This document shows positions 3,036-7,643 of a stretch of 26,138 nt of DNA, piece after piece (position 1 is the first letter of the stretch; each line of letters opens with the position of its first letter). This stretch comes from a virus. The stretch lies in the IMG/VR virus record IMGVR_UViG_3300044846_001187, positions 1-26,138 of that record; one strand, written 5' to 3'. The notes under the pieces were generated by a model. The model worked only from the letters and a program-made list of their open reading frames with translations, ran no database searches and was not told the DNA's origin. Made by a program: the position numbers and the translations under genes.

Positions 3036-3725
3036 TCAGTATTCATTTTGCGTTTCGATTAATTCCTTATACCGTTCCTGCCTGTATTCCGTAAACTGAT
3101 ACGGCTTGTTTTTGTACACCCGGAAGCGCATATCGTTATCCCACAAAGGCAGCGCATCGTATTCATTCATCAATTCAATTTCAAGCTGTGAAGGTTTGTT
3201 ATGTCTTACTGCACGCACTGGTTCTTCTTTGATGCTTAACTTATCTGCTGCCTGTTGCATCGCATCCATGATTTGCGGATGCTGGAACATTTCGTAGATA
3301 TTATTCTGCTGCTTCTTGCTTTCATTGATTGCATCACTTACCACTTGCCTTTCTTGGTCGTAAAGTGGAAACCATGCAAGCACAGTAGCTGGGTCAATAC
3401 GATTGAACAGCGTGCCGTACTTACCAATGGCACCGTTATCAAAAATAATTTGCAGTTCTTCAAGTGAATACATCCACATCTTGTCCATGATTTGTTCAGC
3501 GCAAAATTCAATCTGCAAGCTGTTCATGGTATTCTGCACATTGACCAGCTGCACGCACCGGGCAAGCAATGACATCACTGCGACTTTGGTTAGTTCCTTA
3601 TCAACCTTCCGAAGTAGACTGAGTTTTTCCTGCTGCATCGCGTGCGCGACTGATAGCGATTGCTTCGGTGAGAAGTTGGTTAGCTTGTGCAATGCTGTTT
3701 GCTGTTGTATTTGGTTGTTTTCCAT
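3036..3725 (-). CDS. Replication-associated protein (DUF6633-like)
   Basis: The 229-aa product is counted from the ATG at 3725, which follows an AAAACCAAAATCAAT leader. The middle 'MYSLEELQIIFDNGAIGKYGTLFNRIDPATVLAWFPLYDQER' (roughly residues 84-125) resembles a Bacteroidetes phage and plasmid family usually found beside replication initiators; I recall it as DUF6633 but could not check. The C-terminal part is charged and aromatic-rich. The gene starts inside the initiator gene and overlaps it by 125 nt, an unusually long overlap. A helicase-loader or primosome role is inferred only from the neighbour. Confidence 0.6.
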   Translation of the reverse strand: MENNQIQQQTALHKLTNFSPKQSLSVAHAMQQEKLSLLRKVDKELTKVAVMSLLARCVQLVNVQNTMNSLQIEFCAEQIMDKMWMYSLEELQIIFDNGAIGKYGTLFNRIDPATVLAWFPLYDQERQVVSDAINESKKQQNNIYEMFQHPQIMDAMQQAADKLSIKEEPVRAVRHNKPSQLEIELMNEYDALPLWDNDMRFRVYKNKPYQFTEYRQERYKELIETQNEY

Positions 3726-4401
3726 ATTGATTTTGGTTTTTATTTTTTTCAAATGTAAATGCATTATTCATCCATTTGCGCACAGTCGCTTCCCAAGAAA
3801 CGATTTTTGCGCCACCCGATGTTTTCCACCCGGTGCTTGTGTAGTGGTCAAAACAATTTTTGCTTTCTGCAACAATTTTCATTTCGCTCCACTTACCACC
3901 CGATTTCATATTCAACTCACCCATAAAATTATAAATATCATTTTCGGATGGTGGTGAAAACACCACTCTATTGTTTCTTTGTTTCTTTGTTTCTTGGTTT
4001 CTTTGTTTATCTATGGGGGCACTGCTGTGTTCAATGCTGTGTTCAATGCCGTTGCTGTGCTGTATCAATGCCGTATCCAATGCTGTATGCAATGCTGTGG
4101 CTTTTTTGCTACGGCATATTGATATTATTGTGCTGCTATACTGGTTCTTAGATTCACTTATGATTTGAATGAAATTCCATTTAGCTAAGTCGCTAAGTGC
4201 ATCCAAGTAGGTGCGCTTGTTACCAATATGCAATCCTTCCATAGTTGCGTTCGTTGGTATTCCAAACTGCTCCTTCCAGCCAAGTCGATTGTTTAGTTCA
4301 ATGATCCACATGAACAAAGCAGTGTGCTGGCACTTCACTTCCGAATGCTCAAAGGCAAAGTCAAACCACTTCCGGGAAAGGTCGTAACCGTTATTTTTCA
4401 T
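3601..4401 (-). CDS. O-like phage replication initiator
   Basis: This 266-aa protein has an N-terminal winged-helix-like region (residues 10-95, with ALFMWIIELNNRLGWKEQFGIPTNATMEGL and a recognition-type segment NKRTYLDALSDLAKWNFIQII), a low-complexity linker (about residues 98-145) and a C-terminal region with 'KSGGKWSEMK...FDHYTSTGWKTSGGAKIVSWEATVRKWMNNA', typical of phage replisome organisers that bind the origin and load the helicase. The DNA of the linker is made of two tandem-repeat arrays, as in lambda gene O where the origin lies inside the gene. The start overlaps the stop of the GIY-YIG gene (ATGA). The last 125 nt are shared with the next gene in another frame. Confidence 0.75.
   Translation of the reverse strand: MKNNGYDLSRKWFDFAFEHSEVKCQHTALFMWIIELNNRLGWKEQFGIPTNATMEGLHIGNKRTYLDALSDLAKWNFIQIISESKNQYSSTIISICRSKKATALHTALDTALIQHSNGIEHSIEHSSAPIDKQRNQETKKQRNNRVVFSPPSENDIYNFMGELNMKSGGKWSEMKIVAESKNCFDHYTSTGWKTSGGAKIVSWEATVRKWMNNAFTFEKNKNQNQYGKQPNTTANSIAQANQLLTEAIAISRARDAAGKTQSTSEG
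3971..4010. repeat. Five 8-bp tandem units, origin candidate
   Basis: TTGTTTCT occurs three times exactly, then TGGTTTCT and TTGTTTAT, in perfect 8-bp register. On the coding strand this is an A-rich purine strand (AAACAAAG type). A period of 8 is not a multiple of 3, so the repeat is not a simple peptide repeat. It lies 12 nt from the iteron-like array inside the initiator gene and could be the easily melted part of an origin. Confidence 0.5.
4023..4100. repeat. Iteron-like 12-bp array, origin candidate
   Basis: Units of the form TGCTGTRTNCAA follow each other: two exact copies of TGCTGTGTTCAA, a longer diverged copy (4047-4068), TGCCGTATCCAA, TGCTGTATGCAA and a final partial TGCTGTGG. They encode an Ala/Thr/Leu/His-rich linker of the replication initiator (about residues 101-127). 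Arrangement, unit size and place match origins embedded in initiator genes such as lambda ori in O. Function is inferred. Confidence 0.55.
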
Positions 4402-4688
4402 TTGTGCTGTGTGTTGTATTTCGGCTGTAAAGTTTTAATCAAATGTTTTTCAAACTCCTTTGAGTTTGTACATTCTGTAAAATAAAACTGAACATAACCA
4501 TAAGTTGCATTCAATAAACGTAATACTTCATGCCTATTGTAACGCTGCCATAAATTTATAGAACTACCAACGTATAAAACGCCTATCGTAGGTTCGACAA
4601 TCACATAAACCCCTTCCTTTTTTGAAGGATAAGCGAAGTTTCTATCGTAGGTATTGGGTGTATACCATGAATCTTTTAAATAAAACAT
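4398..4688 (-). CDS. Free-standing GIY-YIG endonuclease
   Basis: The 96-aa product is one GIY-YIG domain: GVYVI (residues 26-30) and YVG (39-41) are the name-giving strands, R49 in LWQRYNRH is the expected catalytic arginine, E80 in KEFEKHLI the metal-binding glutamate, and KYN (90-92) closes the domain. There is no added DNA-recognition domain, so it may be a small nicking or repair-type nuclease rather than a large homing enzyme. It is the first gene behind the promoter at 4797-4827, after a folded leader, and its stop overlaps the start of the replication initiator. No intron was seen around it. Confidence 0.85.
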   Translation of the reverse strand: MFYLKDSWYTPNTYDRNFAYPSKKEGVYVIVEPTIGVLYVGSSINLWQRYNRHEVLRLLNATYGYVQFYFTECTNSKEFEKHLIKTLQPKYNTQHK

Positions 4689-4699
4689 AGAACTAAATA

Positions 4700-4764
4700 C
4701 CCACCACTACACACAAAGGCAACCCAGCGCACGGTTGTGCTTATGGCAATGCGGTAGTGATGGG
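4700..4764 (-). ncRNA. Structured leader RNA candidate before GIY-YIG gene
   Basis: On the minus strand CCCATCACTAC (4764-4754) can pair with GTAGTGGTGGG (4710-4700) over 11 bp with a single G-U pair, whereas the plus strand has a mismatch at that point, so the fold favours leftward RNA. Between the arms is a smaller GCAC-AACC-GTGC hairpin, and its AACC loop could pair with the following GGGTT. The element lies in the roughly 100-nt leader predicted from the promoter at 4797-4827 and ends 11 nt before the GIY-YIG start. It has no T-tract. I do not recognise a known riboswitch or ribozyme. Confidence 0.4.
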
Positions 4765-4796
4765 ATTTAAAATGTTTTTCATACTGAGTTGCGTTG

Positions 4797-4827
4797 CAAA
4801 GATATACAAAATATCTCTACTTCCAAA
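4797..4827 (-). promoter_or_regulatory. Near-consensus Bacteroidetes promoter, leftward
   Basis: On the minus strand TTTG (4827-4824), 19 nt and TATCTTTG (4804-4797) fit the Bacteroidetes housekeeping promoter exactly. The -33 element lies in the last codons of the upstream gene. An inverted repeat AGATAT-acaaa-ATATCT (4800-4816) sits across the spacer and -7 element and may be an operator. Predicted transcripts start near 4790 and would carry the folded leader, the GIY-YIG nuclease and the replication genes. Confidence 0.7.
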
Positions 4828-7109: not shown

Positions 7110-7643
7110 ATTGGGAAACATTACAACGAGTGGCTGAACAAAGCTACAGGGCTTACCCACGATAAAACAAAGGCAAGTGATCTACTGCATGAGGTACTTG
7201 CCCGGCTAATGGATAGACCAGAGCAAGATGTGAAGGATATCGTGTGTGGTGGGAAGGTAGAGCAATATGTAAATCGTGCATTGTGGTTATCATGGCACAG
7301 CAACCGAAGTGATTATGCTGTGAAATACCGCAAATACTACGAATTACATATTGAATGTGAAGTGGCAGATACGAAACAGGATGAAACCTGGATAGGCGCA
7401 TTCATAGATGGTGAATACTTATACAGTGCAATCGGGCGTTTAAATGAATACGACAGCATATTGCTTCGTCTATATAGTAAACCCGATTTCGATTACAAAG
7501 AATTAAGCCGCGAAACAGGTATACCATACAACTACCTTCGCACTTCAATACATCGAGCATTAAAAAGAATAAGAGAATATGTTAAACTTCAACGTGCCAT
7601 TGCACATTCAACGCGAGAGATTGAACACGTGCAAAAAATGTAA
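7110..7643 (+). CDS. Sigma-70 region 4-like regulator
   Basis: The frame is open from 7086 and its codons from 7110 on (GKHYNEWLNKATGLTHDKTKASDLLHEVLARLMD) look like the start of sigma-like phage proteins, yet there is no ATG, GTG or TTG in frame before 7209. ATT at 7110 is the best-placed start and gives 177 aa; starting at ATG 7209 (144 aa) would lose the conserved helices. The C-terminal part 'LLRLYSKPDFDYKELSRETGIPYNYLRTSIHRALKRIREYV' is an HTH like sigma region 4. As first gene of the rightward arm it probably controls late expression. A lost base near the start is an alternative explanation. Confidence 0.6.
   Translation: MGKHYNEWLNKATGLTHDKTKASDLLHEVLARLMDRPEQDVKDIVCGGKVEQYVNRALWLSWHSNRSDYAVKYRKYYELHIECEVADTKQDETWIGAFIDGEYLYSAIGRLNEYDSILLRLYSKPDFDYKELSRETGIPYNYLRTSIHRALKRIREYVKLQRAIAHSTREIEHVQKM

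Follow-up and report, generated by a model that had tools for sequence, protein, structure and literature searches.

A predicted pseudoknot leader RNA, probably an attenuator, ahead of a phage replication operon

The replication operon and its promoter

The DNA analyzed here by computational means, referred to as the window, comprises the 26,138 nucleotides of IMG/VR virus record IMGVR_UViG_3300044846_001187 (positions 1 to 26,138). On its minus strand a leader of approximately 100 nt opens a leftward replication operon (Table 1), the second gene of which belongs to PHROG families that are common to the replication proteins found behind other leaders described below. Megablast comparison with named phages gave no match. 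Since the nearest terminases among isolates are those of Flavobacterium phage 11b (43%) and Cellulophaga phi10:1 (38%), the host is very probably a member of the Bacteroidota. Elsewhere in the window (7209–7643, plus strand) lies a gene for a 144-aa protein with a weak match to sigma-70 region 4 (Pfam, E 2e-5, below cut-off), which adjoins the divergent start of the rightward genes.

Table 1. Features of the leader and of the first genes of the operon, listed in the direction of transcription
Feature	Position	Strand	Remarks
-33 promoter element TTTG	4824–4827	-	overlaps the end of the upstream ORF (ATT TGG AAG TAG)
Dyad AGATAT-ACAAA-ATATCT	4800–4816		over the -7 box; possible operator
-7 promoter element TATCTTTG	4797–4804	-	TAnnTTTG type of Bacteroidota
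Helix a, 5' strand GCAACUCAG	4784–4792	-	predicted RNA 5' end; 9 bp with 4727–4719
Leader AUG	4781–4783	-	directly after helix a; possible 13-codon uORF (MKNILNPITTALP, then stop), 4783–4742
Helix b, 5' strand CCCAUCACUAC	4754–4764	-	11-bp stem with 4710–4700
Inner helix CGCA	4750–4753	-	4 pairs with UGUG (4715–4712) beyond a bulged U (4711)
Hairpin c, GCAC-AACC-GUGC	4729–4740	-	inside the apical loop; all four stem pairs covary
Helix a, 3' strand CUGGGUUGC	4719–4727	-	in the apical loop of helix b; covaries with 4792–4784
Helix b, 3' strand GUAGUGGUGGG	4700–4710	-	covariation, both sides changed
U-rich tract UAUUUAGUUCU	4689–4699	-	between hairpin and start codon; terminator-like
First gene, GIY-YIG protein	4398–4688	-	96 aa; Pfam PF01541, E 2e-7
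Second gene, replication-initiator-like	3601–4401	-	266 aa; PHROG 15768/23776/28809

A pattern derived from the leader recovered 88 IMG/VR stretches and a second pattern recovered more, so that the window-type leader is represented in IMG/VR phages by at least 113 copies, 72 of them distinct; the 113 that were analyzed include related phages, and the distinct copies are not to be equated with independent events. Six relatives which were reached through the GIY-YIG gene share the leader. It is always found directly before an ORF of the same direction, and these first genes fall into ten unrelated families. At locus L007 the upstream gene is unrelated and identity starts exactly at the promoter.

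The promoter has the TTTG-N19-21-TAnnTTTG arrangement of the Bacteroidota. Its -7 box reads TATCTTTG or TATATTTG in 69 of the 72 distinct copies, and ATTTGGAAGTAG is retained at the -33 region in most copies with differing upstream DNA. The distinct copies share a constant TTTG-N4-GC layout in which only the N4 varies; the spacing from promoter to RNA is thus fixed, which places the predicted 5' end of the transcript at, or next to, position 4792, close to the originally proposed 4790. The arms of the dyad are complementary at five or six of six positions in 52 of 71 distinct copies while themselves changing (ATATAG/CTATAT, AGATAG/CTATCT, AGATAT/ATATCT and AGATAA/TTATCT), and the dyad is missing from some 15 copies of the GAAAGGGTTGT type. 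It is possibly the operator of a repressor, in which case there would be two classes of promoter.

Structure and covariation of the leader RNA

The folding energy of the minus-strand RNA is -34.5 kcal/mol, which gives a z of -3.1 (2 of 200 shuffled sequences folded equally well) versus -1.5 for the plus strand, that is, better-than-shuffled folding is limited to the minus strand. The promoter, the dyad, the 11-bp stem (helix b) and the inner hairpin (hairpin c) all lie where the original prediction had placed them, and helix b pairs fully, with one G-U, in the minus-strand RNA only. Its pairing is no accident: it is maintained in 100% of the 72 distinct copies (shuffle maximum 95.3%) through double changes such as CACUAC/GUAGUG to CUUCAC/GUGAAG. 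The inner helix is likewise 100% paired, with exchanges of CG for UA and of GC for AU. Absence of covariation among relatives had been named beforehand as grounds for abandoning the proposed structure; it is in fact strongly present. For the structure as a whole 126 cells are changed on both sides, against 37 in shuffled and at most 17 in slid alignments, 98.2% of the cells pair, and the covariation score is 0.432 versus 0.175, values which are conservative since the plain MAFFT alignment of 32 representatives misaligned some of the helix-a strands.

The most informative helix was absent from the original prediction. This is helix a, between 4792–4784 and 4727–4719, which is 99.4% paired in the 72 distinct copies (shuffle mean 70.7%; best of 500 shuffles 75.3%) and exists in 17 versions, among them GCAACUCAG/CUGGGUUGC, GCUAGUUCG/CGGACUAGC, GCGUACCCU/AGGGUACGC and GCUCGUUCG/CGGACGAGC. 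Comparison of the copies thereby shows that the nine-base 5' segment of the RNA has kept the capacity to pair with the apical loop of the downstream hairpin. A pairing of the AACC loop of hairpin c with GGUU, which had been suggested earlier, has to be given up: the loop varies freely within the form NNYC, and the GGUU covaries with the 5' end of the RNA. The tetraloop (window 4736–4733) is always NNYC though its stem varies, and is perhaps a contact or protein site. As judged from these patterns the leader is an H-type pseudoknot with a hairpin in its middle (strand order a-b-c-a'-b'). Helices a and b can coexist, and the 18–20 nt between them should, by their length, suffice to span helix b.

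Every one of the 72 distinct copies has an AUG in its leader, which in 71 lies at +9 to +11. The frame of the possible uORF relative to helix b is kept in 62 and lost in 10, and its variable codons alter the amino acids; a conserved peptide is therefore doubtful. At the gathering score Rfam gave no match for the window or for leaders L313, L309, L283, L318, L316, L197 and L196, and permissive scans gave matches at chance level only.

The hairpin of helix b ends about 12 nt before the AUG of the first gene, and the sequence after the stem is in most copies UAUUUAGUUUU. In 98.6% of copies U makes up at least five of the eight bases following the stem, compared with 5.3% of the windows upstream of ORFs on the same contigs. 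The window-type sister copies in L012 and L093 have tails of U8–U9 before a 751-aa gene (MEYLEFIQSKQK..), and L099 has a U7 tail. The statement that a T-tract is lacking was accordingly too strict; in the window itself the tail UAUUUAGUUCU is U-rich but interrupted. Because of this interruption and the long loop of the hairpin, termination in the window itself may be weak and control could be translational instead.

Unrelated leaders of the same design

When the replication protein behind one leader was used in a search, phages were found which carry, at the same place, leaders unrelated in sequence. Most of them stand ahead of replication-initiator genes. Their shared plan consists of a promoter, a 5' hairpin, and a full intrinsic terminator with a U tract that directly abuts the ATG and an apical loop complementary to the loop of the 5' hairpin ("kissing loops"). 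Leaders having a promoter, a terminator and an ORF, as called by a terminator scan with simple rules that could miss or over-call cases, numbered 53 after removal of redundancy. In 21 of them the terminator loop complements the 5' region at a duplex score of 8.5 or more (at least four of these 21 being window-type), against 0.59 expected from shuffles; a score of 9.5 is reached by 12 of the 53 versus 0.18 in shuffles. Other duplex matches of 8.5 or more within the window have no promoter and ORF and look like chance.

Twenty-one different kissing pairs were counted. L197 illustrates the arrangement, with AGUUGU[GUGCGAG]ACAACU facing [CUCGCAC]. One common gene is preceded by L200 ([GUAGCAG]/[CUGCUAC]), L192 ([GUAGAAG]/[CUUCUAC]), L211 ([GUAGGCU]/[AGCCUAC]) and L230 ([GUCGCAG]/[CUGCGAC]), another by L227 (GUUGCAG/CUGCAAC) and L198 (GUCAGAU/AUCUGAC), and the otherwise similar leaders L243 and L244 have GUCUCAG/CUGAGAC and GUCGCAC/GUGCGAC, respectively. 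One and the same gene (KDPAFLFY.. or MDAL..) can be found behind either type of leader. Fourteen of the 21 kissing 5' strands start with GU; in L200, L192 and L211 an AU stands before the loop GUAGNNN, so that start-stop pairs (AUG-UAG) result.

The design extends to isolated phages: Flavobacterium phage 11b (CGGGCAGG/CCUGCCCG before PHG11b_62), Polaribacter phage P12002L (GGUCGUAG/CUACGACC before a gene annotated "primosomal protein"), F. columnare phage FCL-2 (CAUCCAC/GUGGAUG before gp54), phages FCV-1, V175 and V186 (GUAGAGAG/CUCUCUAC, a differing leader at the genome position of that in FCL-2) and Tenacibaculum phage Gundel_1 (GUAGGAUUC/GAAUCCUAC before a "primosomal protein"). The PHROGs matched by the genes behind the leaders of FCL-2, P12002L, FCV-1 and Gundel_1 are of the replication initiation, O-like, primosomal or DnaD-like kind. 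The leaders of FCL-2 (37482–37595) and FCV-1 (35880–35995) are non-homologous, occupy the same position and are each internally kissing-complementary; the FCV-1 types carry an extra 69-aa gene. No leader was detectable in five other isolates (phi10:1, P2559Y, P12024S, 6H and B124-14), and pattern scans for further members of two kissing families yielded few new loci. On sequence comparison, then, many phages of Bacteroidota are shown to carry unrelated leaders with the same predicted logic, a classical intrinsic terminator whose loop kisses that of a 5' hairpin. The 17 versions of helix a and the 21 kissing pairs are, despite the kinship among the phages, hard to explain otherwise.

No part of the region is more variable than helix a, which still keeps its pairing: the pairwise difference of its two strands is 0.52/0.44, compared with 0.33 for the promoter spacer and 0.18/0.11 for helix b. 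Where two loci have downstream DNA that is at least 97% identical, 13 of 27 pairs differ at three or more positions of helix a. L063 and L121, with 97% identity upstream and 99.6% downstream, have completely different leader alleles, an apparent exchange of cassettes. Two window-type leaders per phage occur in L012, in L093 and on the contig of L099 and L147, always with differing helix a. The mean energies of the kissing loops are -10.2 kcal/mol for cognate and -2.3 kcal/mol for non-cognate partners, and those of the 17 window types -13.6 and -6.6 kcal/mol. With non-cognate energies this favorable on average, there may be cross-reaction between some of the window types. Some 15% of their non-cognate pairs would still reach -10 kcal/mol or better. 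The partner octamers do not recur in the window, 11b or P12002L (the FCL-2 7-mer has one chance match), hence the target would be the leader itself or another copy of it. Loops that change rapidly and remain complementary suggest self-recognition in trans as well, though drift with compensation plus recombination can also produce rapid change in helix a.

Probable function and comparison with known systems

We consider it probable that the leader is a cis-acting, loop-pairing RNA attenuator of the phage replication operon, transcribed from its own promoter, and thus probably the switch which decides expression of the replication genes. RNA polymerase would either stop at the terminator hairpin, releasing a leader RNA of approximately 100 nt, or continue into the replication genes, and the choice would be set by pairing of the 5' segment with the loop, which is possible while the 3' half of this stem has yet to be transcribed. 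Pairing may promote termination or prevent it, either being compatible with a structure in which the two helices coexist. The terminated leader could be a small RNA. With less certainty, the self-complementarity of the RNA would let terminated leaders made by other genome copies compete for the same loops, and expression would drop with a growing number of copies, or of co-infecting phages that share the loop type. Carried further, these leaders might form a class of self-complementary attenuators which sense and silence their own copies, with the loop types acting as incompatibility types among co-infecting virulent phages of Bacteroidota, kept under diversifying selection and swapped as cassettes; this extension we put forward only tentatively.

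Of the earlier interpretation the promoter and regulatory leader are well supported, the two traveling together with strong covariation, while a replication-priming RNA is not supported, being at odds with the constant position directly before a same-direction ORF and with the intrinsic terminators that end the unrelated leaders there, beside the ATG. A link to GIY-YIG genes or mobility falls with the finding that GIY-YIG genes account for only 6 of the 110 first genes, the ten first-gene families being unrelated.

Action in trans might instead be the main function, the terminated leader being a diffusible immunity or copy-number RNA that shuts off transcription of the replication genes in phages sharing its loop type, like P4 CI RNA or plasmid antisense RNAs. 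The hypervariable and self-complementary loops, the swaps of whole leaders between near-identical flanks, the differing helix a in two leaders of one phage and the gap between cognate and non-cognate kissing energies all agree with this. We regard it nevertheless as rather improbable. There is no separate CI-like gene, the promoter motif TAnnTTTG is present on the opposite strand in just one of 113 copies, and the proportion of non-cognate window-type pairs with strong predicted pairing is considerable. Among 84,980 bacterial and archaeal genomes the pattern gave 16 hits, all of them due to chance and none a true host or prophage copy, and no leader was detected near 24 replication-like genes in Bacteroidota genomes. 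Moreover FCL-2 is a virulent phage according to PMC8092290, which leaves no role for lysogenic immunity there and makes it an unlikely purpose of the leader. An antisense partner was rejected, there being no opposite-strand promoter, save in the one copy mentioned, and no second occurrence of the pairing octamers in the window, 11b or P12002L.

Somewhat less likely still is purely translational control, in which the hairpin with its AU extension (UAAAU/AUUUA) would sequester the initiation region of the first gene, to be opened or locked by helix a or by ribosomes at the AUG of the leader, with no termination of transcription in the window family. The short distance from hairpin to start codon, the invariable AUG right after helix a and the mostly paired AU extension speak for it, and the ColIb-P9 replication gene is a known case of pseudoknot control (PMC8383071, PMC10724649). 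It is opposed by the clear intrinsic terminators of unrelated leaders at the same place, by the U8–U9 tails of some window-type copies and by the broken frame and changing codons of the uORF.

That the 5' pseudoknot merely stabilizes the mRNA against 5'-end-dependent decay, or serves as an operator for a bound protein in the manner of T4 gene 32, is very unlikely; the RNA 5' end does lie within helix a, but this would leave unexplained both the terminators next to the ATG and, in other families, kissing loops away from the 5' end, and hypervariable paired bases are ill-suited to a conserved protein site. A self-cleaving HDV-like ribozyme, whose P1-P2-P3-P1'-P2' topology is matched by a-b-c-a'-b', can be dismissed, for the window has no HDV-family covariance-model match even at E 10, its linkers, 9 and 19 nt long, are incompatible with the short joints found in HDV, P1.1 and P4 are missing, and the constant spacing of the 5' end from the -7 box points to a start of transcription and not a cleavage site.

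Attenuation by loop pairing remains our preferred reading. To our knowledge almost nothing is known of how the lytic replication genes of Bacteroidota phages are controlled, and we found no description of such leaders in the open-access literature. The element is compact and testable in isolated, culturable phages, with at least 21 loop versions from cultured and uncultured members, and its natural orthogonal kissing-loop pairs are available for Bacteroidota expression tools. We would predict that matched double mutants restore function and that phages with the same loop interfere with one another.

With no Rfam match, antisense promoter or prophage copies, the leader belongs to none of the systems it resembles. 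The RNAI/RNAII pair of ColE1 has 7-nt kissing loops of rapidly changing specificity; the phage loops are likewise fully complementary over approximately 7 nt and change fast, but ColE1 employs two molecules and controls a primer whereas the phage pairing lies within one leader. The T4 gene 32 leader also contains a pseudoknot ahead of a phage replication gene; it binds the gene product and, unlike the leaders described here, has no terminator. The countertranscript attenuation of pT181 and pIP501 shares with them a leader terminator before the replication-initiator gene and, as predicted for the phages, control by RNA pairing (PMC8383071), but depends on an antisense RNA transcribed in the opposite direction, for which no promoter is seen here. 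In the repZ systems of ColIb-P9, IncB and IncK a 5' stem-loop pairs through its loop with a distal hairpin just upstream of the replication gene, and a pairing of this kind is predicted for the phage leaders; single loop changes alter incompatibility there (PMC10724649), and a leader peptide takes part. Those systems act on translation through the antisense RNAI, whereas the distal partner in the phages is a terminator loop, with no antisense RNA seen and a leader AUG that is conserved without strict conservation of its frame. In phage P4 a leader-derived RNA, CI, governs transcription of the replication genes through RNA-RNA pairing (seqA, seqB and seqC) and termination (PMC4825925). Complementary sites and terminators are both present in our leaders and their effect on replication-gene transcription is predicted to be of the same kind, with no sequence relation found. 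P4 differs in its lysogeny, in the processing of its CI RNA and in having several complementary sites; the phages described here look virulent, and in them both partners, a 5' loop and the apical loop of the terminator itself, belong to one leader. The element suggests that plasmid-style RNA control of copy number or incompatibility may operate in virulent phages.
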